Source: Pararhodobacter oceanensis (GTDB taxonomy: Bacteria; Pseudomonadota; Alphaproteobacteria; Rhodobacterales; Rhodobacteraceae). Taken from it: DNA of 64,000 nucleotides. Both the position numbers and the translations under genes were made by a program. Below, one piece after another: positions 15,348 through 29,402 of the stretch. Location of the stretch: NCBI RefSeq assembly GCF_003076755.1, contig NZ_QDKM01000001.1:434001-498000 (forward strand), written 5' to 3'. The notes beneath the pieces are model-generated. The model saw nothing but the letters and a program-made list of their open reading frames with translations, made no database searches and was not told the DNA's origin. The stretch's first letter is position 1. The number at the start of each line of letters is the position of its first letter.

Positions 15348-16034
15348 TCAGCCCAGCGCATAACCCGCGCCGCGCACCGTGCGGATCGGGTCGCTGCCGC
15401 CCGAGCGGGTGAGGATCTTGCGCAGCCGTCCGATATGCACATCGACGGTGCGTTCATCGACATAGATATCGCGGCCCCAGACCAGATCAAGCAGTTGATC
15501 GCGGCTGAACACACGACCCGGACGCTCCATCAAGCGGCTGAGCAGGCGGAATTCGGTTGGCCCCAGTTTGAGCATCTCGCCGCCACGGCTGGCGCGGTGG
15601 CTCTCGGGGTCCAACGTGATATCCTCGTAATTCAGCACCGCAACCGCCACCGCCGAGACGCGGCGCAATTGCGTGCGCACACGGGCGATCAATTCATTGA
15701 CCGAATAGGGTTTGACCACATAGTCATCGGCGCCGGTTTCCAATCCGCGCACGGTATCGACCTCTTCCGAGCGCGCAGAGAGCATGATCACCGGAATCCG
15801 CCGTGTCTCGGGGTCGGATTTGATCTGGCGGCAGACTTCGATGCCGCTCATCAAGGGCATCATCCAGTCAAGGATCACCAGATCCGGCGCGGCCTCGGCG
15901 ATCATCTGCATCGCAGCTTCGCCATTGGCGGCGCAGCGCACGGCATAGCCCTCGGCTTCGAGATTATAGACCAGAACCTCACGCTGGGCGGGTTCATCCT
16001 CGACCAGCAAGACCTGTGCTTGAAGAGCCGCCAT
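15348..16034 (-). CDS. phoB: Phosphate regulon response regulator PhoB
   Basis: A 228-residue OmpR-type regulator. The receiver domain has the acidic pair in VEDEP (E12, D13), the phospho-acceptor D56 in LILDWMMPLMSG, and the lysine in GADDYVVKPY. A C-terminal winged helix follows, with the ELLRKLLR-like wing region reading GRLRKILTRSGG and ending RTVRGAGYALG. It binds Pho boxes when phosphorylated by PhoR at low phosphate. It lies three bases after phoU and is the last gene of the phoR-phoU-phoB group. A match to a Pho box is present upstream, at the start of the collapsed pst region. Confidence 0.93.
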   Translation of the reverse strand: MAALQAQVLLVEDEPAQREVLVYNLEAEGYAVRCAANGEAAMQMIAEAAPDLVILDWMMPLMSGIEVCRQIKSDPETRRIPVIMLSARSEEVDTVRGLETGADDYVVKPYSVNELIARVRTQLRRVSAVAVAVLNYEDITLDPESHRASRGGEMLKLGPTEFRLLSRLMERPGRVFSRDQLLDLVWGRDIYVDERTVDVHIGRLRKILTRSGGSDPIRTVRGAGYALG

Positions 16035-16037
16035 CGG

Positions 16038-16757
16038 TTAGCCCTCACCTGTGGTTGACGCGGTAGACGAGGTGGTATCGGCCTTGGGCCGCCCCTCGTC
16101 GGGTTGTTTGCCGGTGGCCAGATAGATCACCTGCTCGGCAATCGAGGTCACATGATCGCCCATCCGCTCGGTGTTCTTGGCGATGAAATGCAGATGCAGG
16201 CTCGAGGTGATATTGCGCGGATCCTCCATCATGAAGGTCAGCAACTTGCGAAACAGCGCGTTATACATCTGGTCGACATCGACATCGCGGGCGATCACAT
16301 CCTCGGCCAGTGCCACATCGCGGTGGATATAGGCGTCGAGCGCGTCTTTCAGCATCCCCTCGACGGCGCGGGTCATCCGACGCAGCGTGCCGGTGCTGTC
16401 GCGGATCGGCGCCGCCTGCGACAATACCTCGGTGCGTTTGGCCATGTTCTTCGCGTAATCGCCGATACGTTCCAAATTGCCGCTGATTTTGATCACGCTG
16501 AGCACCAGCCGCAGGTCAACCGCGGTCGGCGCGCGCAGGGCAATGATCCGCGCCGCGCCCTCGTTGATCTCTTCTTCCAGCGCGTCGATCTCGGCGTCGG
16601 CAGCGCGCACCACCTGCGCCAGTTCCTCGTCGCGGGCCTCCAGCGATTGCATGCCTTGGTGGATGGCGTTTTCGACCAGACCGCCCATTTTCATGATCAG
16701 CGCCTGCACCGCCTCAAGGTCGGTGTCAAAGGCCGATGAGATATGCTCGTTTTGCAT
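16038..16757 (-). CDS. phoU: Phosphate signalling regulator PhoU
   Basis: A 239-residue all-helical protein with the two PhoU three-helix repeats. The first has the metal-contact pattern EEEINEGAARIIALRAPTAV followed by DLR. The second begins RDVALAEDVIARDVDVDQMY. The GDHVTSIAEQVIYLATGK end is typical. PhoU couples the PstSCAB phosphate importer to PhoR and represses the Pho regulon when phosphate is plentiful. Here the pst genes that normally precede it are missing from this locus, so a functional partner must be elsewhere in the genome or the signal path has changed. Its start is four bases from the PstB remnant stop. Confidence 0.93.
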   Translation of the reverse strand: MQNEHISSAFDTDLEAVQALIMKMGGLVENAIHQGMQSLEARDEELAQVVRAADAEIDALEEEINEGAARIIALRAPTAVDLRLVLSVIKISGNLERIGDYAKNMAKRTEVLSQAAPIRDSTGTLRRMTRAVEGMLKDALDAYIHRDVALAEDVIARDVDVDQMYNALFRKLLTFMMEDPRNITSSLHLHFIAKNTERMGDHVTSIAEQVIYLATGKQPDEGRPKADTTSSTASTTGEG

Positions 16758-16760
16758 GGT

Positions 16761-17087
16761 TTATCCAATCCTGCCGGTGATGTCGCTTACAGGGTGCCTG
16801 TCGCCGGGTGCGGTGAACATCTGCCCCGTTTTGCCGTAGTCTACCAGAGCAGTGCGATAAGAAAACGCGGTTTTCTGGCTCAGCCGCGCGGCCTGTGGCG
16901 CCAGATGGGTGACACCCGCGGCAGGGTGGTTTTGGCGCAGATCGTCGATCAACCTCTCGCCCTGTGTGGTCGCAGCCGCAGAGGTGGCGCGGAGAATGAG
17001 CGTCCTGACGCCCCTGCGCGCGGCGGTGGCATCTGCCGAGGGCGAGGCATTGGCGAAGGTCGAGGCGGTAGATTGAATAAAAGACAT
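16761..17087 (-). pseudogene. Degenerate remnant of pstB (pst operon scar)
   Basis: A 108-codon open frame whose last 69 codons resemble the C-terminus of the phosphate ATPase PstB. Visible matches are ERLIDDLRQNH, VTH plus QAARLSQKTAF (PstB normally VTHxMQQAARxSxxTAF), MFTAP, and the terminal SDITGRIG (PstB normally DYITGRxG). Walker A, signature and Walker B are absent, and the region just after VTH has lost the SMQ residues. The first 35 codons are alanine and threonine rich and could be leftover of another pst gene, perhaps the PstS signal peptide, but this is a guess. The normal Rhodobacterales order is phoR-pstSCAB-phoU-phoB. Here phoR is followed only by this scar, indicating internal deletion. 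It may be translated but cannot be an ATPase. Confidence 0.75.
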
Positions 17088-17164
17088 GAAAGCTGCTGTC
17101 GTCGTCCTGAAACCGGAGCATCCCCTGATGATCCTGACGCGGTATTGCGCGCCGCGTGTCTCGG

Positions 17165-17197
17165 AAATGCGACAGGCGTGTAATCGTTTTGTGACAG
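17165..17197 (-). promoter_or_regulatory. Pho box ahead of the former pst operon
   Basis: Read leftward the site is three 11-bp units: CTGTCACAAAA, CGATTACACGC and CTGTCGCATTT. The outer two match the PhoB consensus CTGTCAT-type repeat; the middle keeps only C-ATTAC. The 22-bp spacing of the good units suits a PhoB dimer pair. It lies after the phoR stop, where the pstS promoter should be. Confidence 0.7.
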
Positions 17198-17211
17198 AGT
17201 GCCGGTCAGCC

Positions 17212-18288
17212 CTAATTCTTGTCGCTCTCGGGCACCTGCGCAGGCGGCAGCACCACGGTGAACACCGCCCCCTGCCCCGGTTCGCTGGCCACCCTGAGCC
17301 GCCCGCGATGGCGGTTGAGGATATGTTTCACAATCGCCAGCCCCAGCCCCGAGCCGCCCAATTCGCGGCTGCGGTGGCTGTCGGCGCGGTAGAATCGCTC
17401 GGTCAGGCGCGGCAGATGGATCGGATCAATCCCCGGCCCATGATCGCGCACCGTGACCGCTATGGCAGGGCCGCGCAGCACCGGATCATGGGGCAGGTTT
17501 TGCACCGAAATCTCCACCCGCTGGTCGGCACCGCCGTATTTGACCGCGTTCTCCACCAGATTGGTAAACACCTGCAGCAATTGATCGGAATCTCCGGTGA
17601 TCCAGAGCGGCGCCTCAGGCGGCGTATACTGCAGGTCAACGCGGTTCTCGCGCGCCAAGGGATCAAGGTTGGCCAGCACGCTTTGCAACACGCGGCGCAG
17701 ATCCAGCCGTGTGGTCGGGCGTAGCCTGCCATCGGCCTCGACACGGCTGAGCGACAACAGCCCCGCGACCAGCCGGTTCATCCGCTCGGCCTCGCTGGCC
17801 ATAATGCCCAAGAACCGCTCGCGCGCCTTGGCATCCTCTCGCGCCGGACCGCGCAGGGTCTCGATGAAACCGATCAATCCGGTCAGCGGCGTGCGCAATT
17901 CATGGCTGACATTGGCGACGAAATCGCGGCGCATCTGCTCGGCTTGGGCCAATGCGGTGGCGTTTTCAAAGCTGAGCAATATCAGATCGCTGCCCGCAAT
18001 CGCATGAATATGCACGTCGTAATGCATCTCGCTGCCGCTATCGACGATCTGGTAAGAGACATCGCGCGGCACCTGATCCTGCAAGCAGTGCTCCACCGCC
18101 TCGACCAGTTTGGGATGACGCAATCCGGTGGTGAAATGCCGCCCGAGGCAGGCCGCCCCCAAGAGCGCCGCGCCGCGCGGGTTCATCGCTTCGACCTTCT
18201 GCGTCGGACCAATGACCAGCGCCGGCAATGGCACGGCGGCGATCAGCGCCTCGACCTCTGCACATGTGCCCTTCTCCACGCCGCCCAC
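17212..18288 (-). CDS. phoR: Phosphate sensor histidine kinase PhoR
   Basis: A 358-residue kinase with a PAS-like domain (residues about 10-105), a dimerisation/phospho-acceptor helix with FVANVSHELRTPLTGLIG (H about 129), and a complete ATP domain: N-box FTNLVENAVKYGG, GPGI in RDHGPGIDPIHL, and G2 GSGLGLAIVKHI. It phosphorylates PhoB. No hydrophobic helices precede the PAS domain, so unlike enterobacterial PhoR it seems soluble or associated through partners. The start is a GTG; a second GTG nine bases on has a better GAGAGGTG site in front. It begins almost at the stop of the XRE-cupin gene, so both may be on one message. The Pho box comes right after. Confidence 0.9.
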   Translation of the reverse strand: MGGVEKGTCAEVEALIAAVPLPALVIGPTQKVEAMNPRGAALLGAACLGRHFTTGLRHPKLVEAVEHCLQDQVPRDVSYQIVDSGSEMHYDVHIHAIAGSDLILLSFENATALAQAEQMRRDFVANVSHELRTPLTGLIGFIETLRGPAREDAKARERFLGIMASEAERMNRLVAGLLSLSRVEADGRLRPTTRLDLRRVLQSVLANLDPLARENRVDLQYTPPEAPLWITGDSDQLLQVFTNLVENAVKYGGADQRVEISVQNLPHDPVLRGPAIAVTVRDHGPGIDPIHLPRLTERFYRADSHRSRELGGSGLGLAIVKHILNRHRGRLRVASEPGQGAVFTVVLPPAQVPESDKN

Positions 18289-18291
18289 CTC

Positions 18292-18939
18292 TCAGACCCT
18301 CGACCCAGAGGCGTCGGCAGGTGCGGGCTCGGTGGTGTCCGGCTCGGTGCAGACCACCAGAATGCGCGCGTCCTGCGCCCCCGCCGAAGCATAGAGATGC
18401 CCGCGCGAGCTGTCCAAATAGAGGCTGTCGCCTTGGCGCAAAGTGACCGGCGCCTTACCCTCGGCAAACACCGTGATCGCGCCTTCGAGCACGATCAGGA
18501 ATTCCTGACCGGGATGGCGCACGAAGTCATCGAAGTCCTTGAGATCATGCGCTTTCAATGTCCCCATCATCGGCACCATCGCCTTGTTGCGGATTTCGGG
18601 GAACAGCATCTCATAGACGTAATTCGGGGTCTCCTGCCGCTTGAACTCACCCTTGGCGGCGACCGCGAAACTGCCCGGCGCGAAACTGGTGCCATCGGGG
18701 GTGAAGAGTTCGGCCATATCCACCCCGATGCCGCGCGCCAATTGCAACATCCGGTCATAGGTCAGCGACATCAACCCGCGCTCGGCTTTGGAAAGCGTTG
18801 AGACCGCCAGCCCCGAACGCTCGGCCAATTCGCTAAGCGTCCAGCCACGATCACGGCGCAACGCCCTGAGACGGCGGCCAAATTGGGCGCGCTCGCTGTC
18901 GGGGTCATCGGCGGTTGGCGGCGGGGCGGCATATGTCAT
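18292..18939 (-). CDS. XRE-family regulator with C-terminal cupin
   Basis: A 215-residue protein with an N-terminal helix-turn-helix (about 20-75, including GWTLSELAERSGLAVSTLSK) and a C-terminal cupin barrel (about 130-200) ending HLYASAG and ILVVCTEP. Such PuuR/SutR-like regulators bind small carboxylates or amines in the cupin and control a neighbouring catabolic operon. The first ATG with a plausible context begins MTYAAPPPT; the frame is open for 80 codons upstream but overlaps the likely operator. It is divergent from the FAD oxidase/TRAP/M81 operon, with 117 bases between, which contain two similar palindromes. It most likely represses that operon and itself. Confidence 0.85.
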   Translation of the reverse strand: MTYAAPPPTADDPDSERAQFGRRLRALRRDRGWTLSELAERSGLAVSTLSKAERGLMSLTYDRMLQLARGIGVDMAELFTPDGTSFAPGSFAVAAKGEFKRQETPNYVYEMLFPEIRNKAMVPMMGTLKAHDLKDFDDFVRHPGQEFLIVLEGAITVFAEGKAPVTLRQGDSLYLDSSRGHLYASAGAQDARILVVCTEPDTTEPAPADASGSRV

Positions 18940-18976
18940 GCGGCGATCATAGCCTGCCGCCCGCCCTTCGCAATCG

Positions 18977-19016
18977 TTTTTCTTATCGGAAAAATTTGCC
19001 TTTCCAATACCGAAAA
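18977..19016. promoter_or_regulatory. Paired palindromic operators between XRE-cupin and FAD gene
   Basis: Two related palindromes: TTTTTCTTATCGGAAAAA and, 22 bases on, CTTTCCAATACCGAAAA. Both follow TTTYC-N5-SGAAAA. They fill the only gap between the regulator and the divergent operon and are spaced two helical turns apart, as expected for cooperative dimers of the cupin-type regulator. This assignment is inference. Confidence 0.55.
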
Positions 19017-19056
19017 TCGTGCTAGCGTGGCGGGGATGTAAAGGGTTTGGGACTCT

Positions 19057-20187
19057 ATGAACGGCGAGAAACGTGGAATTGTGGTGGTCGGCGCGGGGAT
19101 TGCGGGCGCATCGGTGGCGGCGGAACTGGCGCAGATGGGCCAAGATGTGCTGCTGCTCGAGCGCGAGGACCAGCCCGGCTATCACACCACGGGCCGCTCG
19201 GCGGCGATCTATGCGCCCAGCTACGGCCCGCCGGTGATCCGCGCACTGACCCGCGCCTCATGGCCCGCGTTCAACGCGCCCGCCACCGCCGACCGCCCGC
19301 ATCCGCTGCTGCGTCACCGCGATGTGTTGTTTGTCGCCCGCAAAGATCAAGCCGAGTCGCTGGCCGCCGAACAGGCCGCCGCCCCCGCCCTGCAGCCCCT
19401 GACGCCAGAGGGTGCGCGCGCCATGCTGCCGCTGTTTCACGCGGGCTATCTGGGCGGCGCTTTGCTGGACAGCGGCGCGGCGGATATTGATGTCGACGCG
19501 CTGCACCGGCAGTATCTGCGCGGGCTGGCGGCGCATGGTGGCGAGACGCGGCTGCGCACCGAGGTCACCGCGATAACGCGCGAGGGAGAGACCTGGCACC
19601 TGCAGACCAGCGCGGGGGAAATCAGCGCCGATATCGTGATCAACGCCGCTGGCGCTTGGGCCGATGATCTCGCCGCGCTGGCGGGCGTGGCGCAGATCGG
19701 TCTGGTGCCGAAACGCCGCACCGCGCTGCTGCTCACCCCGCCCGAGGGCCATGCGGTCGATGGTTGGCCGATGGTGGTCGATGTTGATGAGGAATTCTAC
19801 CTGCGCCCCGATGCCGGAAAACTGCTGGTCTCGCCCGCCGATGAAACCCCCTCGCCCGCCTGCGACGCGCAGCCCGACGAGATGGACGTGGCGATCTGCA
19901 TTGACCGCATCCAGACCGCCTTTGATCTGCCGGTGCGCCGGATTGACCATAAATGGGCCGGTTTGCGCTCGTTCGTGGCGGACAAGGTGCCGGTGGTCGG
20001 CTTTGCCCCCGATGCGCCGGGGTTCTTCTGGCTCGCTGGCCAGGGCGGATACGGCATCCAGAGCGCGCCTGCCTTGGCCCGCACCGCCGCCGCGCTCGCA
20101 CTGCACCGCGAGATCCCCGCTGATATCGAGGCCGAAGGCGTCACCGCCGAGGCACTGGCGCCCAACCGCGCGGGGCAGCGCGCATGA
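19057..20187 (+). CDS. FAD-dependent amine/D-amino acid oxidase family
   Basis: A 376-residue DAO-fold oxidoreductase. The N-terminus reads GIVVVGAGIAGASVAAEL then LLEREDQPG, a full FAD-binding fold; the HTTGRSAAIYAPSYG block resembles the glycine oxidase/NAD-independent dehydrogenase relatives, and the C-terminus FFWLAGQGGYGIQ contacts FAD. The likely role is oxidation of an amine, an imino acid or a D-amino acid, with transfer of electrons to O2 or a quinone. It is the first gene of the operon controlled by the divergent XRE-cupin regulator. Its last codons overlap the start of the TRAP large permease, so the enzyme substrate is probably what that transporter brings in. Confidence 0.83.
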   Translation: MNGEKRGIVVVGAGIAGASVAAELAQMGQDVLLLEREDQPGYHTTGRSAAIYAPSYGPPVIRALTRASWPAFNAPATADRPHPLLRHRDVLFVARKDQAESLAAEQAAAPALQPLTPEGARAMLPLFHAGYLGGALLDSGAADIDVDALHRQYLRGLAAHGGETRLRTEVTAITREGETWHLQTSAGEISADIVINAAGAWADDLAALAGVAQIGLVPKRRTALLLTPPEGHAVDGWPMVVDVDEEFYLRPDAGKLLVSPADETPSPACDAQPDEMDVAICIDRIQTAFDLPVRRIDHKWAGLRSFVADKVPVVGFAPDAPGFFWLAGQGGYGIQSAPALARTAAALALHREIPADIEAEGVTAEALAPNRAGQRA

Positions 20188-21470
20188 TCTGGGCCGCCCC
20201 CCTTCTGGGCGCACTCTTGCTCGGCTCGGGGCTGGCGATTGCCTATGTCGTTGGCGGCGCCACCGTGCTGGCGTTCTTCGCCGCCGGACAAGAGCGCTAT
20301 CTGGCGATCCTGCCGCAGCAGATTTTCTCGAAGATTGATGTGTTCGCGCTGATGGCGATGCCGCTGTTTATCCTCGCCGGTGAGGTGATGAACCGTGGCG
20401 GCGTCACGCGGGTGTTGATCCGGCTGGCGATGGCGATGGTCGGGCGGGTGCGCGGCGGGCTCGGGCATGTGAATGTGCTCACGTCGGTGTTTTTCGCCGG
20501 TATCTCCGGCTCGGCGGTGGCCGATAGCGCGGCGGTGTCGAACACGCTGGTGCCGGCGATGACCGAACAGGGCTATAAACTGCCCTATGCCGGCGCGATC
20601 ACCGCCGCCTCCTCGATCATCGGCCCGATTGTGCCGCCCTCGATCATCATGATTTTCTACGGCGCGCTCATGGGCACCTCGGTGACCGCGCTGTTCATCG
20701 CGGGGCTGATCCCCGGACTGATTCTGGCCGTGGCGCTGATGGCGGTGAACAGTTTCTACGCATGGCGCGACGATCACCCGCGGCTTGCGCGCGAGGACGT
20801 GCCGCCGTTCTTTCCGACCCTGTTGCGGGCAGTTCCGGCGCTGAGCATTCCGATGATCATCGTCGGCGGCATCGTCTTGGGCTGGATGACCCCGACCGAA
20901 GCCGCCGCCGTCGCGGTGGTCGCGGCGACGCTGGCGGGGATGTTCTACGAGCGGCTGGCAATGGGCGAATTGCTCCTCGCGCTGCGCCGCACGGCGATGC
21001 TCTCGGGCTCGATTTTCATGATCATCGCGGCGGTCTCCGCACTTGGTTATCTCGGTGCGCTCGAGCGTCTGCCCGAAGCGATCGCCAGCACGGTCACCGA
21101 ATTGGGCCTCGGGCCACTGGAATATATGATCCTGCTCAATGTGATCTTTCTGATCTCGGGCATGTTTCTCGATATCCCCGTCGCCTTGGCGCTCTTGGTG
21201 CCGCTCTTGGCGCCGGTGGCCATCGCGCAGGGGGCCGATCCGGTGCATCTGGGCATAATTGTCTGTTTCAACCTGTCGCTGGGCCTGATCTCGCCGCCCT
21301 TGGGCGCCTGCCTCTTGGTGGTCTCGACGGTGACGGGGGCGAATTACTGGGCGCTGGCGCGGGCGGTGCTGCCGTTTCTACTGATCCAGATCGCGGTTCT
21401 GGCGCTCTTGGTCGCAGTGCCGGACCTGACGCTCTGGCTGCCCCGCACCATGGGTCTGATCGCGCAATGA
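20184..21470 (+). CDS. TRAP transporter large permease (DctM)
   Basis: A 428-residue inner-membrane protein with about 12 hydrophobic helices, the normal size for DctM. Signature blocks are SGSAVADSAAVSNTLVPAM and SSIIGPIVPPSIIMIFYGAL near the first re-entrant half, and LGLISPPLGACLLVVST in the second. It uses sodium to drive uptake of organic acids, amino acids or related solutes bound by DctP. ATG overlaps the FAD oxidase stop. The gene order here is dctM-dctP-dctQ, with the large subunit first rather than last. Confidence 0.93.
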   Translation: MIWAAPLLGALLLGSGLAIAYVVGGATVLAFFAAGQERYLAILPQQIFSKIDVFALMAMPLFILAGEVMNRGGVTRVLIRLAMAMVGRVRGGLGHVNVLTSVFFAGISGSAVADSAAVSNTLVPAMTEQGYKLPYAGAITAASSIIGPIVPPSIIMIFYGALMGTSVTALFIAGLIPGLILAVALMAVNSFYAWRDDHPRLAREDVPPFFPTLLRAVPALSIPMIIVGGIVLGWMTPTEAAAVAVVAATLAGMFYERLAMGELLLALRRTAMLSGSIFMIIAAVSALGYLGALERLPEAIASTVTELGLGPLEYMILLNVIFLISGMFLDIPVALALLVPLLAPVAIAQGADPVHLGIIVCFNLSLGLISPPLGACLLVVSTVTGANYWALARAVLPFLLIQIAVLALLVAVPDLTLWLPRTMGLIAQ

Positions 21471-21473
21471 CCG

Positions 21474-21513
21474 AAATTAACCACGACCCAACCAAATTAA
21501 CCACAACCAACGA
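21474..21513 (+). repeat. Tandem 20-bp repeat ahead of dctP
   Basis: AAATTAACCACGACCCAACC is followed directly by AAATTAACCACAACCAACGA; 16 of 20 positions match. It fills most of the gap between dctM and dctP, is unusually AT-rich for this window, and leads into the GGAGGA ribosome site of dctP. It may be unstructured leader that helps raise DctP translation. Confidence 0.6.
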
Positions 21514-21531
21514 TAAACCGGGAGGAAGACT

Positions 21532-22506
21532 ATGACACCAACCACATTCCTGAAAGCCGCCGGACTTGCGGCGCTACTAGCCAGCGGCTCGGCGGCCTCG
21601 GCGCAGATCAAGATCGCGCTCGACAGCCCCGCCGATCTGGCCACCTCGGGCAGCTATGTCTGGGCGCATGCCTTTGCCACGCATCTCAATGAGAACGGCA
21701 TGGAGGCCGAGGAATACCAGCGCGGCGCGCTCGGCGGCGATGACGAGGTCTTCGATCAGGTCAGCCAAGGGCTGTTGGAAATCGGCATGTCGCCCCTGGG
21801 CATCGTCTCCTCGCTCGACACGCTGATCTACGGGCTGCGCCTGCCCTATTTCTTTGCCGATATCTCCGAGGTTGACCACGCGCTTTATGACAACGGTATG
21901 CTGGCCGCGATCAACGAAGGGCTCGACGGCACCGGCGTGCAGGTGCTGGCGGTGAACACCGTCGGACCGGCGACCGGCATTTTCAACACCCAGCGCGCGA
22001 TTTCCTCGATGGCGGATATGGAGGGGCTCAGGATGCGGGCCCTCGATGAAAGCCAGATCGAGCTTTACGCCGCTTGGGGCTCGACTGGCACCATCGTCAG
22101 CTGGGCGGAAGTGCCCAACGCGCTGCAAACCGGCGTGGCGGATGGCTATCTGAACCCCTCCTTCGTGCCGCTGCTCTTTGGCCACACCGAGTTCATCAAG
22201 CATTTCACGCCCGCGCAAATCTCGCCCTCCTTGCGCATCACCATCGTCTCGGAAGACTGGTATGACGGGCTCAGCGATGATGAGCGCGCCACCGTCGATG
22301 CCGCCGCCGATGCGGGCAACGCCGCCAACCGCGCATGGCTCGCGGCGCAAACCGGCGTGACCGATCAATTGGTCGCCGCCGGGGTGGAGATCACCGAACT
22401 GTCGGATGAGGCGCGCGCCGAATTCCAAGCGGCATCCGAGACCACCTACGGCGCGATTGTCGACGAAGAGCAGCTTGCCGCGTGGCAGGCCGCGCGCGAC
22501 AACTAA
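21532..22506 (+). CDS. TRAP transporter solute-binding protein (DctP)
   Basis: A 324-residue periplasmic protein with a signal peptide ending in SAASA at about residue 24, then QIKIALDSPADLAT. It keeps the DctP layout: the region LEIGMSPLGIVSSLD, and the MRALDESQIELYAAWGSTGT segment in which the arginine (R in GLRMRA) would bind the carboxylate of the ligand, followed by WAEVPNALQTGVADG, the family signature. A perfect GGAGGA lies six bases before the ATG. The arginine suggests a carboxylate-bearing substrate; the identity is unknown. Confidence 0.9.
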   Translation: MTPTTFLKAAGLAALLASGSAASAQIKIALDSPADLATSGSYVWAHAFATHLNENGMEAEEYQRGALGGDDEVFDQVSQGLLEIGMSPLGIVSSLDTLIYGLRLPYFFADISEVDHALYDNGMLAAINEGLDGTGVQVLAVNTVGPATGIFNTQRAISSMADMEGLRMRALDESQIELYAAWGSTGTIVSWAEVPNALQTGVADGYLNPSFVPLLFGHTEFIKHFTPAQISPSLRITIVSEDWYDGLSDDERATVDAAADAGNAANRAWLAAQTGVTDQLVAAGVEITELSDEARAEFQAASETTYGAIVDEEQLAAWQAARDN

Positions 22507-22526
22507 GACGGCAAAGGACGCGCGCG

Positions 22527-23063
22527 ATGATCCGCAAGATTGCCACAGGGCTCGACCGCCTCTCGGCCACGCTGAACACCATCGCCCTTTGGGGTGCGGT
22601 GCTGGCGGTGCTGGTGATGGTCTTTGCCGCCGGCTGGCAGGTCATCGCGCGCTACGTCTTTGCCGCCCCGCCGATCTGGACCGAAGAACTGGCGCGCCGC
22701 GCTATGGTCTGGGCGGGGATGCTGGGCGCCTCGGCGGCCTATTACGCGCGCGCCGACCCCTCGCTGTTTCCGCAAGCGGCGGCGATCAAGGGCCGCCTCG
22801 GCAACATCCTGTCGCTGATCCGCGCCACCGGCGTGCTGATGTTCGCCCTGCCGGTGATCTGGTTCAGCCTCTATGGCCCCAATATGAACCTCGCGCGTGG
22901 CTTTCTTGGCCGCAGCCTGTCGCGCACCGCCGAGATGATCCCGCTGCCGATGATCTTTTTCACCGCCGCCGTGCCGCTGGCTTTCGCATTAATCGTGCTG
23001 CATCTGACCGCGCGGCTGGCCATGCAACTTAGCGGCGCCGATACAGAAGACCCGAAATCATGA
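22527..23063 (+). CDS. TRAP transporter small permease (DctQ)
   Basis: A 178-residue membrane protein with four hydrophobic helices. The conserved block WQVIARYVFAAPPIWTEELA and the following RRAMVWAGMLGASAAYY is the DctQ signature. It joins DctM as the membrane domain of the TRAP importer. AAAGGA precedes the ATG by about nine bases. It overlaps the start of the M81 peptidase gene by four bases, placing uptake and hydrolysis in one transcript. Confidence 0.9.
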   Translation: MIRKIATGLDRLSATLNTIALWGAVLAVLVMVFAAGWQVIARYVFAAPPIWTEELARRAMVWAGMLGASAAYYARADPSLFPQAAAIKGRLGNILSLIRATGVLMFALPVIWFSLYGPNMNLARGFLGRSLSRTAEMIPLPMIFFTAAVPLAFALIVLHLTARLAMQLSGADTEDPKS

Positions 23064-24535
23064 AGACATTCATCGCCTGTCTGGCCACCGAAACCAACTC
23101 TTTCTCGCCGCTGCCCACCGGCATCGCCGCGTTTGAGGAGGGCCATATCCACCACGGCACCGCCACCAAATCGCCGCCGGTCTATTGGACCGGTGCGCTG
23201 CGGCTCTGGCGCGACGCCGCCGAGGCGCGCGGCTGGCCGGTCACCGAGAGCCTCGCCGCCTTCGCCCAGCCCGGCGGGCTGACGGTGCGCAAGGTCTATG
23301 AGGATTTTCGTGACGAGATCATCAAGGATCTGCAAGCCGCGATGCCGGTGGATATGATCTTGCTGCAACTGCACGGCGCGATGATCGCCGATGGCTACCC
23401 CGATTGCGAAGGCGATCTGATTGCCCGTCTGCGCGAGATCGCGCCCGAGGCCAAGATCGGCGCGCTTTTGGACCCGCATTGCCATCTGACCGAGGCGATG
23501 CTGACTAAGGCCGACGCGCTGATCTGCTTCAAGGAATATCCGCATATCGACGTGCTTGAACGCGGCGCGGAATTGTTCACCCTGATCGCCGACGCCGCCG
23601 AGGGCAAGATCCAACCAGTGATGCGCGATTACGACTGCCGGATCATCATGGCGATGCCGACGCCCGAGGGGCCGATGCGCGACTACGTTGACGCGATGTC
23701 CGCGCGTGAGGCCGAGGCGGGTGTGTTGTCGCTGTCTCTGGCGCATGGCTTCCCTTGGGGCGACCATGAGCGCACCGGCGCCCGCGCGCTGGCGATCACC
23801 GATGGCGATGCGGCGCTGGCCGAGACCATGGCCCGCGAGTTGGGCGAGAAACTCTGGCGCGAGAAAGAGGCGATCTTTCAGGAGGTCCTGACCATCGACG
23901 AAGCACTTGATGCGGCAGCGGGGCATAACGACGGGCCGATTGTGCTGGCCGATATGTCCGACAATGCCGGTGGCGGCGCGCCTTCGGATTCGACCTTCCT
24001 CTTGCGCGCGATCCTTGACCGTGGACTGACCTCGGTGGCCTCGGGGATCTATTGGGATCCGGTGGTCGTGCAGCTCTGCACCGAGATCGGCGAAGGCGCG
24101 ACATTGCCGGTGCGTCTGGGCGGGAAATCCGGGCCAATGTCAGGCGATCCTCTGGATCTGGTGGTGACGATCAAGCGCATCGCCACTGGCCTGACCCAGC
24201 GTTTTGGCAGCCTGCCCGCGGCGCTGGGCACGATGGTCTGGCTCTCGGTGGACGCGGGCACCGGCAATGCCGATGACAACATTGATCTGGTGGTCAATGA
24301 CACCCGCACCCAGACATTTCATCCCGAGGCGTTCACCCAATTGGGCATTGATCTGGGCCGCAAACGGCATCTCTGCGTGAAGTCCTCAAACCACTACCGC
24401 GCAGGCTTTGCACCGATTGCCAGCGTGATCATTCCGATTGCGACACCGGGGGCGATCACCCCGGATTTCAAAGCCATCCCCTACACCAAGCGCGCGCCCA
24501 ACTATTGGCCGAAAATCGAGGATCCTTTCGCATGA
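23060..24535 (+). CDS. M81 family metallopeptidase (MlrC-like)
   Basis: A 491-residue protein of the microcystinase C/MlrC family. The start MKTFIACLATETNSFSPLPT is diagnostic. Zinc is expected to be held by the LHGAM and LDPHCHLT segments (the latter near 138-145), and by a later histidine. The C-terminal domain has VKSSNHYRAGFAP. MlrC opens small linear peptides made from microcystin in sphingomonads, but most homologues are of unknown function and occur in Rhodobacterales beside peptide or TRAP uptake genes. No MlrA, MlrB or MlrD is present. Translation is coupled to DctQ and to the next hydrolase by 4-base overlaps, so it probably cleaves the solute imported by the TRAP system. Confidence 0.87.
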   Translation: MKTFIACLATETNSFSPLPTGIAAFEEGHIHHGTATKSPPVYWTGALRLWRDAAEARGWPVTESLAAFAQPGGLTVRKVYEDFRDEIIKDLQAAMPVDMILLQLHGAMIADGYPDCEGDLIARLREIAPEAKIGALLDPHCHLTEAMLTKADALICFKEYPHIDVLERGAELFTLIADAAEGKIQPVMRDYDCRIIMAMPTPEGPMRDYVDAMSAREAEAGVLSLSLAHGFPWGDHERTGARALAITDGDAALAETMARELGEKLWREKEAIFQEVLTIDEALDAAAGHNDGPIVLADMSDNAGGGAPSDSTFLLRAILDRGLTSVASGIYWDPVVVQLCTEIGEGATLPVRLGGKSGPMSGDPLDLVVTIKRIATGLTQRFGSLPAALGTMVWLSVDAGTGNADDNIDLVVNDTRTQTFHPEAFTQLGIDLGRKRHLCVKSSNHYRAGFAPIASVIIPIATPGAITPDFKAIPYTKRAPNYWPKIEDPFA

Positions 24536-25401
24536 GCAACGCCCTGATGACCGCCCGCGACGCTTTCCTCGCGCAACACCCCGAGACCCGCGTTAACCTT
24601 GACGGGCGCGACTGGGGGCTGATCGACACCGGCGAGAGCGCAGGCAAAGACGCAGAGGTTTTTCTGTTTCTTCCCGGCACCTTGGGTCGCGCGGATGTGT
24701 TTTTTCACCAGATTGCCGCGCTGGCTCCGCATCGCCGCGTGCTTGCGGTCAGCTATCCGTCGTCCGGCGGGGTGCGCGAATGGGCGGAAGGATTAACCAC
24801 GCTCCTTGACCAGCTTGGCATCGCAAAGGTTGCGCTGCTCGGCTCGTCGCTTGGCGGCTATCTCGCGCAGTATTTTGCCGCCAAAGACCCCGCGCGCGTC
24901 ACCCATTTGTTTGCCGCCAATACGCTGCATTCCGTCGAGGGTGCCGACCAGCGCCCGCCCTATTCCTCGGACCTCTGGGCGGCGCCGATTGATGAGTTAC
25001 GCGCCGGTTTCGCCATGGGGATGAACGCCTGGAAAGCGGCGCATCCCGATCACGCCGAGATGGTCGACTTTCTGTTGACCGAAGCCGCTGGCCGCATCCC
25101 CGAAGCCGAATTGCGCGCCCGTCTTGATGCGATTAAAACCGGCCCCGAACTGCCGGCCCTCGCCAATACGGCGGCAAGCGCCACCACCATCGAGACGCTC
25201 GACGATCCGCTGATCCCGCCCGCCATGCGCGACGCGGTGCGCGCGCGCAATGCACCGGCCAAGGGCTTTCGGTTTATGTGGGGCGGGCATTTCCCCTATC
25301 TGCTGCGGCCCGAGCTTTATTCCAACCTGTTGTTGGCGCGTCTCGGGCTGGCGGAACTTTCCGGTGATTGGCAAGAGGTTGACGGGGTATGTCAGGCATA
25401 A
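24532..25401 (+). CDS. Alpha/beta hydrolase, maspardin-like
   Basis: A 289-residue alpha/beta hydrolase. FLPGTLGRADVFFHQI resembles the eukaryotic maspardin (SPG21) N-terminal block, and the nucleophile elbow is GSSLGGYLAQYFAA with S106. A late histidine in WGGHFPYL completes a likely triad. The ATG overlaps the M81 gene stop. The protein could cleave an ester or amide freed by the M81 peptidase or imported by the TRAP system, but no substrate is known. It ends the operon and converges on the RES toxin gene, 16 bases away. Confidence 0.78.
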   Translation: MSNALMTARDAFLAQHPETRVNLDGRDWGLIDTGESAGKDAEVFLFLPGTLGRADVFFHQIAALAPHRRVLAVSYPSSGGVREWAEGLTTLLDQLGIAKVALLGSSLGGYLAQYFAAKDPARVTHLFAANTLHSVEGADQRPPYSSDLWAAPIDELRAGFAMGMNAWKAAHPDHAEMVDFLLTEAAGRIPEAELRARLDAIKTGPELPALANTAASATTIETLDDPLIPPAMRDAVRARNAPAKGFRFMWGGHFPYLLRPELYSNLLLARLGLAELSGDWQEVDGVCQA

Positions 25402-25417
25402 CCGCGCCCTTCACCGT

Positions 25418-26116
25418 TTAGACCGCGGCGATCACCGAATATTCGGGCGTGCCTTCCCAGACCAGATCCCAAGCCGCGCCGGGTCGGACATTCTGGATCG
25501 CGTTCGGCTCGAAACACACCAGACAGCGCCCGCCTTCGGGCGCGCGCACCGAGGGGTAAATCAACCCACGCGAGCCTTCACGGCGCAGGCCTTCGGACAA
25601 GATCTGCCCCTCGGGATAGCCCAGCGCGGGGTCGGGATGCAGCGCAATATGTCTGGGCTCATCGGTCAGATCATCGAAGACACCGATGAAATCCGCCAGC
25701 AATTCGACATAGCGCGCGCGATCCTCGAACCAGCCGGTAAAGCGCAATTCGCGGGTCCGGTGAAAGGCCACTTCGGCCAGTGAAACCATCCCGTCCCATG
25801 CGCAATACCACGCGCCGCGCTCGCCGGAATTGAACCGATTGCCGCCCGCGCGGGTATAGGTGAAGGCCGCATTCACATGGGTGTCGCCGTAAATCCGCAG
25901 GTCCTGCCGCCGACGCCGCCACGCCAGTTCGCGCGGGTCTAGATGCAGGTTACGGCCCCGCTCGGCCTCAAGCCGTGCGCTGGTCATGCCCTCGATTTCG
26001 GCAAGGATATCAAACTCTTCATCGCTATCGACCAGACCGCGCAGCGCCGCGGGCTGGTGGTAGGTTGCAGGCAGTAGGCGCACCAGCCCACGGTCAGAAA
26101 TCTCGGTTTGCCTCAT
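25418..26116 (-). CDS. RES-domain toxin
   Basis: A 232-residue RES domain protein. The conserved arginine and following tyrosine/glutamate are in GGNRFNSGERGAWYCAWDG and SLAEVAFH; the serine is in LIYPSVRAPEGG. RES toxins such as ParT, MbcT and Res degrade or modify NAD+ or modify metabolic enzymes by ADP-ribosylation, and stop growth. The protein is larger than stand-alone RES domains, with an extra N-terminus of about 60 residues. Its ATG overlaps the antitoxin stop by four bases, the normal arrangement for this type II module. Confidence 0.85.
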   Translation of the reverse strand: MRQTEISDRGLVRLLPATYHQPAALRGLVDSDEEFDILAEIEGMTSARLEAERGRNLHLDPRELAWRRRRQDLRIYGDTHVNAAFTYTRAGGNRFNSGERGAWYCAWDGMVSLAEVAFHRTRELRFTGWFEDRARYVELLADFIGVFDDLTDEPRHIALHPDPALGYPEGQILSEGLRREGSRGLIYPSVRAPEGGRCLVCFEPNAIQNVRPGAAWDLVWEGTPEYSVIAAV

Positions 26117-26502
26117 GCCCCGCCCCGCAGCGCGTCAAGGTAGCTGCGCAGCGACAGGATCATCGGCAAGCCGCCCTCGATCGCCATATCCACTGGCCGC
26201 GCGCCGTTGAACAGAGGGCCGGTGTTGGGCCGCGTCATCCAATGCTGCGCGAGCGGTGTCGAGAAATACAATTCGAGCGATTTATAGATCCCGATCACCG
26301 CGCTGAGCCGCAAGAGCTGGTCCTTGGTCAACTCACCGGCAAAGGCGGCGCGTTTGGCGCGTTTCCACGTGCTCTCGGACATATCCGCCAGCGCGGCGGC
26401 CTCCTTGATGCTGAGCGCCCAAGCCTCGGCGATCCGCGCATAGGCTTTGAGCGCGACGGTATTGGTCTGGGACGGGTCATGGATTTTGGCAACGGCGCGC
26501 AT
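26113..26502 (-). CDS. Xre/MbcA/ParS-type antitoxin
   Basis: A 129-residue antitoxin with an N-terminal Xre-like helix-turn-helix (SIKEAAALADMSESTWKRAK, about 31-50) and a C-terminal DUF2384 toxin-binding part in which LAQHWMTRPN and FNGARPVDMA are conserved. It should block the RES toxin and repress the pair. GGAGGCC lies just before the ATG. Upstream are two TCATATGA palindromes that fit an autoregulatory operator. The pair lies between the TRAP operon and the TMAO-type reductase. Confidence 0.85.
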   Translation of the reverse strand: MRAVAKIHDPSQTNTVALKAYARIAEAWALSIKEAAALADMSESTWKRAKRAAFAGELTKDQLLRLSAVIGIYKSLELYFSTPLAQHWMTRPNTGPLFNGARPVDMAIEGGLPMILSLRSYLDALRGGA

Positions 26503-26528
26503 TTTGGCCTCCTGTATGATGCAGATAT

Positions 26529-26562
26529 AAGATCATATGACCTGAAAGTAAAGATCATATGA
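26529..26562. promoter_or_regulatory. Tandem TCATATGA operators of the RES-Xre pair
   Basis: AAGATCATATGA occurs twice, 22 bases apart, and each contains the perfect palindrome TCATATGA. They lie 27-60 bases upstream of the antitoxin start, over the likely promoter. The 22-base spacing puts the sites on the same face of the helix. Confidence 0.6.
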
Positions 26563-26647
26563 GCCAACCGCCCGCCCATCACCGGCCCGCGCGCCGCTGA
26601 GCCAGTCGATAGACACAGGTCAGCTATGCGCCCGCAACGCCCTGGGT

Positions 26648-26661
26648 TTGATCAAGGTCAA
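26648..26661 (+). promoter_or_regulatory. FNR/FnrL-type site upstream of the TMAO/DMSO reductase
   Basis: TTGATCAAGGTCAA differs from the FNR consensus TTGATNNNNATCAA at one position. Its centre is about 78 bases before the reductase ATG. A class II activator site centred at -41.5 would place transcription start near 26696. It predicts induction at low oxygen. Confidence 0.6.
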
Positions 26662-26732
26662 GGCAGCAGAGACCCGCCGCCGGTATAGAGGCACCAAGAC
26701 CCACCCAAGACGACACTTCGCAGGAGTATATC

Positions 26733-29402
26733 ATGTCCCTTTTCCAACCCACGCGCCGTCGCTTTTTGCAAACCGGTGCTGCTGCGCTGGGCTCGGCGGC
26801 GTTTATGAATTCGACGGCGCTGGCCTCGATTGACCCCAACTCCTTTGCCGATCGCATCTTTCACGCGACCCACTTCGGCCCCTTCGAAGGCGTGGTGCGC
26901 GATGGGGTGCTGGTCGGGCTGAACAATATGCCCGAGCTGGATTCGCGTCCGACCGAGATGCTGAATTACGGCGTCTTGGACCGCACCTATGACGACTCGC
27001 GGATCAATTATCCGATGGTGCGCAAATCCTATCTTGAGGGCTGGCAGTCGGGCGATGTGAAGCCCGAATTGCGCGGCAAGGAAGAATATGTGCGCGTCGA
27101 TTGGGACACGGTCTGGAGCCTGACCGCCAAGGCGCTGCTCGATACCGCGACCAATCACGGCAACGAGGCGATCTTCAGCTCGTCCTATGGCGGCTGGTCG
27201 AATGCCGGTAACTTCCGCCCGAATGTGATGCAGGGCCGGTTGATGAACCTGATCGGCGGCTGCACCAATACCTCGGGCGACTGGTCGGCGGGTGCCAGCC
27301 AGATCAGCCTGCCGCGTATCATCGGCGATATGGAGGTCTATTCCGCCCAGACCGCATGGGAGGTGATCCGCGACCACACGGAGGTCTTCGTGCTGGTCGG
27401 CTGCGATCCAATCAAGAACAACCGCATCGAATATACCGTCGCCGATCACGGGATGGACGGGCCTTGGGCGCATATCCGTGACAGCGGCACCAAGTTCATC
27501 TCGATCAACCCGCAGCGCACCGCCTCGGATGAATATCTGAACGCCGAATGGGTGCAGATCGTGCCCAATACCGATGTCGCGCTGTTCACCGCGATGGCCT
27601 ATCACGTGCTGGAAAACGGGCTTGAGGACCGCGCCTATATGGAGCGTTACACGGTCGGTTCGGACCGCTGGATCGCCTATCTGAACGGCGAGGATGACGG
27701 CACCCCGAAAACCCCCGCTTGGGCCGCAGAGATCACCGGCATTCCCGCCGAGAAAATCGCTGAGCTGGCCGAGCTTCTGGCGACCTCGAAAACCGAGATT
27801 GCCGGCGCGTGGTCGCTGCAGCGCGCCCAGCATGGCGAGATGACCCATTGGGCGATCATCAACTTTGCCGCGCTGACCGGCAAGATCGGCAAGCCGGGTG
27901 AAGGCGTCGGTTTCTCGTGGCACTATGGCAACGGCGGTCTGCCGCAATCGGGCAAATCCACCCCCACCGGCCTGAGCCAGGGGCGCAACTTTGTCACCAA
28001 GATCTGCCCCGCCAGCCGGATCACCGAAATGCTGGAAAACCCCGGCATGGAGTTTGTCTATAACGGCAACACCAATACCTATCCGGACGTGAAGATGATC
28101 TTCAACGCCGGCAATAACTTCATGTCGCACCAGCAGGACACCAACCGGCTGATCCGCGCGCTGGAAAAGGTCGAGACCATCGTCAGCGTCGATGTCTGGT
28201 GGACCGCCGCGACCCGTTGGGCCGATATCGTCATGCCCGCCTCCTCGACGCTGGAACGCGACGATATCAGCGTCGGCGGCACCTATTCCAACGACCGTGT
28301 CTATGCGATGAAAAAGGTCATCGAACCGGTCGGCGAGAGCCTCTCGGACTATGAGATTTTCGAGGGTCTGGCCGACAAGCTGGGCCAGTGGATGCAGTTC
28401 ACTGAGGGCGAGGATCTGATGTATCACATCGAGCAGGCCTATAGCCGTTCGGGTGCCGCGCAGCATACGCCGTTCGAGGAATTCTGGGAAAAAGGCTATG
28501 CCCGTCAAGAGGTTCCCGAGGAGGCTCGCAGCTGGGTACGCCATGGTGACTTCTACACCGACCCCGATGCCAACCCCTTGCACACCGCCTCGGGCAAGAT
28601 CGAAATGTTCTGCGAGGATATCGCCAGCATGGAGATCGACGACTGCCCCGGCATGCCGATGTGGATGGAGAAACACGAGTATCTCGGCAATGCCGCCGAG
28701 GATGAATTGCATGTCGTCTCGCCACACCCGTGGTTCCGCCTGCACAGCCAGATGGACCAGTCGCAGACCCTGCGCGCGCTTTATAAGGTGCAGGGCCGCG
28801 AGCCGGTGCGGATCAATGCCCAGGATGCCGCCAGCCGTGGGATCGAGGACGGCGATCTGGTCGAACTCTATAACGATCGGGGCACGGTGATTGCCGGTGC
28901 GGTGGTCTCGGATGACATCATGCCCGGCGTGGTCTCGATCTATGAGGGCGCATGGCCGTCGCTCGACAGCAAGGGCCGCTGTAACTCGGGGCTGGTCAAC
29001 TTCCTGACCTCGACGCAGCGCTCCTCGGGGCTCTCCGAGGCGACCACCGCCAATACGGTGCTCTGCCGGATGCGCAAATGCGAGGATCCGGACGGGCCGA
29101 ACCGCGCCTATGAAAAGCCGCCGATCATCGATGATATGGAGATTGCCGAGATTGACATCGACCTGCTCGATCTCGACCGTGTCTATGATATCACTGACAA
29201 TCTGATGGCCGATATGAGCCCCGGCGAGCGGCTTTACTATGAGCGCTGCACGGTCTGCCACGCCCCGCGCGAGGTCACCCATTTCACCCAGCAACAATGG
29301 CGCGGTATCACCCCCTCGATGTTCCCGCGCGCCGGTTTCAACGACGAAGAAGCCGCGCTGGTGATGGACTACCTGATGGCCAACGCCTCGGACGCGCCCT
29401 AA
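26733..29402 (+). CDS. TAT-exported molybdopterin S/N-oxide reductase with heme c tail
   Basis: An 889-residue enzyme of the DMSO/TMAO/biotin sulfoxide reductase family. The twin-arginine leader TRRRFLQTGAAAL sends it folded to the periplasm. Family landmarks are the serine ligand of molybdenum in SGDWSAGASQ (S185), GAWSLQRAQHGEM, HHQD-like FMSHQQDTNRLI, and HPWFRLHSQMDQ. There is no N-terminal iron-sulfur cysteine motif, as expected for this group. Unusually for DorA, a C-terminal heme c motif CTVCH (C839) with a possible axial methionine in PSMFPRAG follows, so a cytochrome is built in. No torC, torD or regulator lies nearby. Substrate may be TMAO, DMSO or another N- or S-oxide. An FNR-type site precedes it; CAGGAG lies before the ATG. 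Confidence 0.86.
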   Translation: MSLFQPTRRRFLQTGAAALGSAAFMNSTALASIDPNSFADRIFHATHFGPFEGVVRDGVLVGLNNMPELDSRPTEMLNYGVLDRTYDDSRINYPMVRKSYLEGWQSGDVKPELRGKEEYVRVDWDTVWSLTAKALLDTATNHGNEAIFSSSYGGWSNAGNFRPNVMQGRLMNLIGGCTNTSGDWSAGASQISLPRIIGDMEVYSAQTAWEVIRDHTEVFVLVGCDPIKNNRIEYTVADHGMDGPWAHIRDSGTKFISINPQRTASDEYLNAEWVQIVPNTDVALFTAMAYHVLENGLEDRAYMERYTVGSDRWIAYLNGEDDGTPKTPAWAAEITGIPAEKIAELAELLATSKTEIAGAWSLQRAQHGEMTHWAIINFAALTGKIGKPGEGVGFSWHYGNGGLPQSGKSTPTGLSQGRNFVTKICPASRITEMLENPGMEFVYNGNTNTYPDVKMIFNAGNNFMSHQQDTNRLIRALEKVETIVSVDVWWTAATRWADIVMPASSTLERDDISVGGTYSNDRVYAMKKVIEPVGESLSDYEIFEGLADKLGQWMQFTEGEDLMYHIEQAYSRSGAAQHTPFEEFWEKGYARQEVPEEARSWVRHGDFYTDPDANPLHTASGKIEMFCEDIASMEIDDCPGMPMWMEKHEYLGNAAEDELHVVSPHPWFRLHSQMDQSQTLRALYKVQGREPVRINAQDAASRGIEDGDLVELYNDRGTVIAGAVVSDDIMPGVVSIYEGAWPSLDSKGRCNSGLVNFLTSTQRSSGLSEATTANTVLCRMRKCEDPDGPNRAYEKPPIIDDMEIAEIDIDLLDLDRVYDITDNLMADMSPGERLYYERCTVCHAPREVTHFTQQQWRGITPSMFPRAGFNDEEAALVMDYLMANASDAP

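Follow-up and report, generated by a model that had tools for sequence, protein, structure and literature searches.

A conserved operon of Pararhodobacter oceanensis unites a TRAP importer, an M81 metallopeptidase and a DauA-like flavoenzyme in a candidate route for scavenging D-amino-acid-containing peptides

A 64,000-nucleotide stretch of the Pararhodobacter oceanensis genome (contig NZ_QDKM01000001.1, positions 434,001 to 498,000; hereafter the window, to which all coordinates refer) holds an operon in which genes for a flavoenzyme, an importer, an M81-family metallopeptidase and an alpha/beta hydrolase diverge from a regulator gene, and Pfam domains support the whole seven-gene set. The probable local regulator (18292..18939, minus strand, 215 amino acids) carries HTH_3 and Cupin_2 domains above the Pfam cut-offs. 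On the plus strand follow a predicted DauA-like FAD D-amino-acid dehydrogenase (19057..20187, 376 amino acids; Pfam DAO, hereafter the DAO protein); the three parts of a complete tripartite ATP-independent periplasmic (TRAP) transporter, all above their Pfam cut-offs, namely the large permease DctM (20184..21470; PF06808, also above cut-off for TIGR00786), the solute-binding protein (SBP) DctP (21532..22506; PF03480, also above cut-off for NF037995) and the small permease DctQ (22527..23063; PF04290); an MlrC-like M81 metallopeptidase (23060..24535, 491 amino acids; DUF1485 and MlrC_C, PF07364 and PF07171); and the alpha/beta hydrolase (24532..25401, 289 amino acids; Abhydrolase_1). Three junctions (DAO/DctM, DctQ/M81 and M81/hydrolase) are 4-bp overlaps, and gaps of 20 bp and 61 bp separate DctP from DctQ and DctM from DctP. 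The first-pass annotation had described six genes behind a divergent cupin regulator, with four of five junctions overlapping or closely spaced; domains, open reading frame (ORF) calls and spacing agree with it on both counts. ORF calls and the starts of orthologues place the start of DctQ at 22527 and that of the hydrolase at 24532, within an ATGA overlap, and not at the TTG at 24505. For the regulator, an alternative 297-residue ORF reaching 19185 would overrun the start of the divergent DAO gene, and the start is therefore most likely at 18939. An Rfam scan of window positions 17000-27000 gave no match.

The spacer between the regulator and DAO genes contains a tandem palindrome (18978..19016, no strand assigned), recognized in an alignment of the window with 18 relatives and having a consensus of about TTTTCCRATYGGAAAA. 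Its first copy, TTTTCTTATCGGAAAA, lies at 18978-18993 and its second, TTTCCAATACCGAAAA, at 19001-19016, the half-sites of the latter being one base further apart; the palindrome is weakest in two plasmid copies. In the organism's own 4.08-Mb genome the double pattern has a single occurrence, at window position 18979. When 60 relatives were scanned it was present in 14 genomes, 10 of them (own included) having it at the regulator-DAO junction, and a reversed control pattern matched 1 of the 60. In genome G004 it sits between a DAO gene and a regulator gene that are placed apart from the rest; in G013, G076 and G091 it lies elsewhere than at that junction, possibly by chance; and it was missed in G002, G003, G011 and G012, of which G011 and G012 carry variants in the alignment. 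One operator per genome links regulator to DAO, and the tandem palindrome is the probable operator of the XRE-cupin protein, whose position and orientation are the same in relatives. The best named NCBIfam match of this protein is PuuR (38 bits against a cut-off of 211). In Pseudomonas, a PsdR-type XRE-cupin protein controls dipeptide uptake, and the present arrangement resembles that system in its gene context, an XRE-cupin regulator standing beside putative peptide-uptake and peptidase genes.

Among 120 genomes (own included), M81 orthologues at ≥65% identity were found in 12 same-genus genomes besides that of the window, usually with a DctP homologue adjoining. In the regions retrieved, the arrangement regulator/DAO-DctM-DctP-DctQ-M81-hydrolase is found again within the genus, in G061 from the same family and in G239 from a different one, and three genomes of other families (G072, G265 and G358) retain most of it. 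Within the genus, a DAO homologue at ≥66% identity is present, anywhere in the genome, in 13 of 13 genomes with an M81 orthologue and in none of the five without, four of which are only 64-85% complete. Locus L163 of G239 is a copy of the whole operon, including an ornithine cyclodeaminase (OCD)-family gene treated below, with 66% identity for M81 and 58% for DAO; because a complete copy at such identities lies outside the family of the window, horizontal transfer is suggested for it. The recurrence of gene order in the genus and in other families, together with the conserved tandem palindrome between regulator and first gene, goes beyond chance and confirms that the operon is real, conserved and coherent. 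The enzymes, which might, according to the first-pass annotation, have proved not to be conserved together, are kept together in relatives.

The DAO protein matches PaDADH/DauA with an E value of 1.5e-93 and 45% identity, the next family following at 2.5e-14. According to PMC11193025, the active site of DauA comprises H48, Y53, E87, R222, E246, Y249 and R305, with E87 and E246 contacting the guanidinium group and R222/R305 the alpha-carboxylate, and the enzyme oxidizes every D-amino acid except D-Asp and D-Glu. Aligned with DauA (through the 6p9d chain, an F variant at position 249), the window protein keeps Y53, R222, E246, Y249, R305 and G332 (16 of 16 rows). E87 is replaced by V (V, A or T in 16 of 16 aligned rows) and H48 by I (I, L or V, likewise in 16 of 16), so that the E87 typical of D-arginine dehydrogenase proper is absent. 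The backbone-binding residues expected of a DauA-like dehydrogenase, Y53, R222, Y249, R305 and, as we presume, G332, are all present. Since the guanidinium contact E87 is replaced by V/A/T and the backbone residues are kept, the protein probably acts as a dehydrogenase of non-cationic D-amino acids, its pocket being less polar. The dauBAR operon of Pseudomonas aeruginosa serves D-arginine catabolism, and its DauB is the OCD-family partner of DauA. The operon described here is like dauBAR in its DauA-like flavoenzyme and, in relatives of the window (not in the window itself), in an OCD-family gene within the same operon; unlike dauBAR, the window operon has E87 and H48 replaced, adds an importer, an M81 enzyme, a hydrolase and an XRE-cupin regulator, and lacks the OCD gene.

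The M81 protein scores 275.7 and 160 bits against DUF1485 and MlrC_C, above both Pfam cut-offs, and aligns with MlrC (7ylq) at an E value of 8.3e-88; against the NCBIfam MlrC model it reaches 316.3 bits, the cut-off being 999. The zinc ligands E11, D138, H140 and H162 (those of MlrC being given in PMC9982164) are retained in 35 of 35 aligned rows, and H133, D332, D341, S392 and K464 are likewise retained in the window protein. Peptide-bond hydrolysis of D-containing peptides is predicted for it from genomic context. The operon is like the microcystin-degrading mlr cluster (PMC9982164 and PMC12474180) in having a cytoplasmic M81 enzyme whose zinc ligands are identical; unlike that cluster, it has neither MlrA nor MlrB among its genes, and a TRAP transporter takes the place of the MFS transporter MlrD. 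In a tree of 86 M81 proteins, the window falls in a 15-row clade with 100/100 support, and the label of a nearby DAO gene is clustered on the tree (14 changes against a shuffled mean of 24), with several gains or losses. Matches to M81 occur in 492 of 72,556 plasmid records; a pattern search of viral contigs gave none.

In DctP, R167 and R169 are shared by all 18 aligned homologues. Its best solved relatives are 4n8g and 4ngu, both presumably with D-Ala-D-Ala bound, with which it shares an RA[LM]D-x-SQ motif and a GT stretch. Literature searches on 4N8G/4NGU, or on TRAP transporters with D-Ala-D-Ala or dipeptides, returned nothing useful. The ddp system of Escherichia coli combines D-Ala-D-Ala import with a dipeptidase, and an importer with a cytoplasmic peptidase for D-containing peptides would work alike; unlike ddp, the operon has a TRAP and not an ABC transporter, M81 and not DdpX, and an added oxidase, and a D,D-dipeptide substrate is here putative.

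The association of M81 with D-amino-acid enzymes extends beyond the genus. Across 289 evenly sampled genomes of the class (thresholds E ≤ 1e-90 for M81 and E ≤ 1e-60 for DauA-like DAO), M81 is found in 41, DauA-like DAO in 89 and both in 34; that is, the flavoenzyme occurs in 34 of 41 M81 genomes and in 55 of 248 others (Fisher 9e-14, uncorrected for genome size or kinship). Where both are present, their starts lie ≤10 kb apart in 12 of 34 genomes (own included), against 0.4 expected on random placement with a 12-kb limit. A genome-neighbourhood survey of M81 covered 78 loci, which are best-scoring places, several from one genome, and include eight plasmid loci hand-picked from 40 listed (of the 492 matching records). 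Labelled with reference proteins (8 kb, 150 bits), 33 of the 78 have a DAO, a D-serine-dehydratase/D-threonine-aldolase-like (DSD) or an M55 protein near M81, the DSD and M55 references coming from the counted loci L056 and L077 and so counting themselves. Leaving out the genus-type operons (L031-L044) gives 23 of 65, compared with 0 of 40 control regions (Fisher 2.6e-6), each of 19 kb, taken at round, not random, coordinates from 25 contigs of 25 M81-locus genomes; M81 surroundings are accordingly enriched in D-amino-acid enzymes. Loci of 4n8g-type TRAP transporters have any of the three enzyme types in 0 of 80 cases. The totals become 34/78 and 24/65 if a 61-bit DAO match at L165, excluded at 150 bits, is counted; the genome-only subset stands at 18/51, or at 19/57 with six left-out genome loci, of which L057 is positive through DSD.

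The survey also brought to light M81 loci of other composition. Two hold tandem M81 genes in one operon (L046:9158-12086 and L050:8048-10978), followed by GlcD-like and indolepyruvate ferredoxin oxidoreductase-family genes (scored for L046), which may point to 2-oxo acids of the aromatic or branched kind. On plasmid 1 of Paracoccus denitrificans PD1222 (L081), genes for an MFS transporter, a serine hydrolase and M81 are consecutive, an arrangement similar to mlrD-mlrB-mlrC in microcystin degraders, with a leucyl aminopeptidase and M42 after them. On plasmid p1318-3 of Roseomonas marmotae (L078), XRE, M81, SBP, amidohydrolase and CobW genes lie beside hmgA, fahA and maiA of the homogentisate pathway.

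In the alpha/beta hydrolase, S106, D224/D225 and H253 are common to all 18 sequences aligned. The label 'maspardin-like', under which it was first described, was not borne out, the libraries searched giving generic alpha/beta-hydrolase matches alone. After the hydrolase, 14 loci of relatives (L031-L033, L035-L044 and L163) carry an OCD/mu-crystallin-family gene. Solved structures closest to its product include those of Pyr2C reductase (6t3e), alanine dehydrogenase (1omo) and iminosuccinate reductase (6rqa). No relic of this gene was found in the window (the best tblastn hit, E 0.015, lies elsewhere in it), and the OCD reductase of a dauBAR-type D-to-L inversion is absent from the window operon. 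An OCD-like gene elsewhere in the same genome, 51% identical, scores 313 bits, below the operon copies of G061 (407 bits) and G239 (388 bits), and is therefore probably a paralogue. Directly downstream of the hydrolase and convergent with it lies a RES toxin and Xre/ParS antitoxin pair (25418-26502, minus strand); standing where congeners have the OCD gene, it may be a trace of the event in which that gene was lost.

From gene content, gene order, conservation, retained residues and operator we infer the following chemistry, substrate class and mode of regulation. The operon is, in our judgement, rather probably an inducible scavenging system for short peptides or amides containing a D-amino acid whose side chain is uncharged and probably either hydrophobic or small. 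A carboxylate-bearing solute would be captured by DctP and imported by DctQM at the expense of an ion gradient; its amide bond would be hydrolysed in the cytoplasm by the zinc enzyme M81; and the freed D-amino acid would be oxidized by the DauA-like flavoenzyme to an imino or 2-oxo acid and ammonia. In most close relatives, not in the window, the OCD-family reductase could then convert the imine to an L-amino acid, as in the DauA/DauB pair. The hydrolase would putatively have a related ester, amide or intermediate as its substrate, and the XRE-cupin protein would bind the tandem palindrome and respond to substrate or product. The pathway claimed in the first-pass annotation is partly supported, as a coherent import-hydrolyse-oxidise set with one local regulator and enzymes conserved together. 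Among the candidate substrates it listed, D-amino-acid derivatives are favoured by the flavoenzyme, in which the residues for the alpha-amino and alpha-carboxylate groups are kept, and by the enriched M81 neighbourhoods; opines are disfavoured for the reasons given below, and nothing was found that points to cyclic peptides.

Several observations weigh against this assignment. At the level of the enzymes, E246, the second guanidinium contact of DauA, is retained in the DAO protein and fits a less polar pocket less well. The proposed base of MlrC, E70, is not kept; its counterpart is Y42, within a loop where the alignment has gaps, so that the general base of the window enzyme may differ. The link between M81 and D-amino-acid enzymes is partial, since 42 of the 65 loci outside genus-type operons have none of the three enzymes. 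DctP is only 27% identical to 4n8g, and no M81 or DAO gene was seen in 80 loci of the 4n8g/4ngu group (80 of 97 loci found, some cut by contig ends); for these two reasons the 4n8g ligand is not transferred to DctP, and the support that this kinship might have lent to D-Ala-D-Ala was dropped. The operon is also not intact in every relative: the TRAP genes of G015 are on a different contig; G004 has regulator and DAO together on one contig (L244), apart from the contig that bears TRAP-M81-hydrolase-OCD; in G002 regulator and DctP have diverged and DAO is located elsewhere; and in G003 the M81 contig ends inside DctM, with DAO on another contig. Finally, nine DctP paralogue loci without M81 (L048, L062-L067, L069 and L070) all adjoin an amidase or Amidohydro_3 enzyme, and the DctP subfamily therefore seems tied to amide-bond substrates. 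These amidase- and Amidohydro_3-paired TRAP loci form a possible family of amide-substrate importers in their own right.

That last pairing (9/9) is what would be expected if the substrate were an N-acyl- or N-carbamoyl-D-amino acid, with M81 acting as an amidase or deacylase and the flavoenzyme oxidizing the freed D-amino acid, a narrower reading that stays within the substrate class preferred above. Two Roseobacteraceae plasmids point the same way, their operons ending, after M81, in an amidohydrolase (NF006560, 688 bits against a cut-off of 340) and a CobW GTPase. We nevertheless hold this alternative to be unlikely: the only characterized M81 enzyme found is a peptidase, and peptide-type ABC importers stand beside several M81 genes (SBP5 ≤8 kb away in 19 of 78 loci), as do M20 or M55 peptidases beside some. 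In Cupriavidus metallidurans CH34 (L082), regulator, DAO and M81 accompany a peptide-type ABC importer; a Phyllobacterium plasmid brings together XRE, DAO, M81, an M55 protein (184 bits against the DppA cut-off of 430) and a peptide-type ABC importer whose permease scores 462, above the cut-off of 434 for D,D-dipeptide permeases; and at L045 and L047 M81 occurs with an ABC importer and two M20 peptidases.

The separability of the importer in G015 and G004, and the ABC or MFS genes that adjoin M81 elsewhere, would suit a TRAP transporter whose cargo is an ordinary carboxylate and whose tie to the enzymes is only loose, in which case the cluster would not be a single pathway. The overlaps and tight spacing in the window, the TRAP-M81 order retained in other families and the co-inheritance of M81 and DAO in the genus (13/13 against 0/5) speak against such a loose association and make it improbable. 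Least credible of all, and deserving very little weight, is an opine or other N-substituted amino acid as substrate, with DAO as opine oxidase and the OCD of relatives as cyclodeaminase, a DAO and OCD pair that does occur in opine operons: the window has one DAO gene, encoding a single chain that is DauA-like along its whole length, none of the operon genes codes for a second subunit of an opine oxidase, and opines offer no amide bond to a peptidase.

Other genes lie close to the operon. Downstream is a large molybdopterin oxidoreductase (26733-29402, plus strand; Molybdopterin and Molydop_binding domains), the C-terminal part of which ends, by eye, in a CxxCH-like motif. Upstream, at 15348-18288 on the minus strand, a phoB-like regulator, phoU and a PhoR-like kinase stand together, uninterrupted by pst transporter genes. 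Pfam gave no match in a 455-bp stretch of this region (16758-17211), and the genome's best PstS-type binding protein is encoded on a different contig.

No description or name of the operon was found in the literature searched, most subscription journals being outside its reach; the same search found nothing joining 'M81 family' and 'D-amino acid', and for M81 itself returned microcystin degradation as the only function. The operon is a new combination of parts of known kinds and mainly a handle on M81: genes of this family are common yet little studied, and an operon that ties one to a D-amino-acid dehydrogenase, an importer and an operator offers a testable physiological role. A broader idea, which we advance tentatively and do not regard as the probable outcome, is that M81 enzymes outside microcystin degradation are widespread D-stereospecific peptidases or amidases, that the operon is a complete TRAP-fed route by which D-amino-acid peptides become 2-oxo acids (or, where OCD is present, L-amino acids), and that MlrC is one specialized offshoot. 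The operon hints at the normal role of the M81 family and, if the proposal is true, would give such bacteria a route to the use of D-amino-acid peptides such as cell-wall debris.

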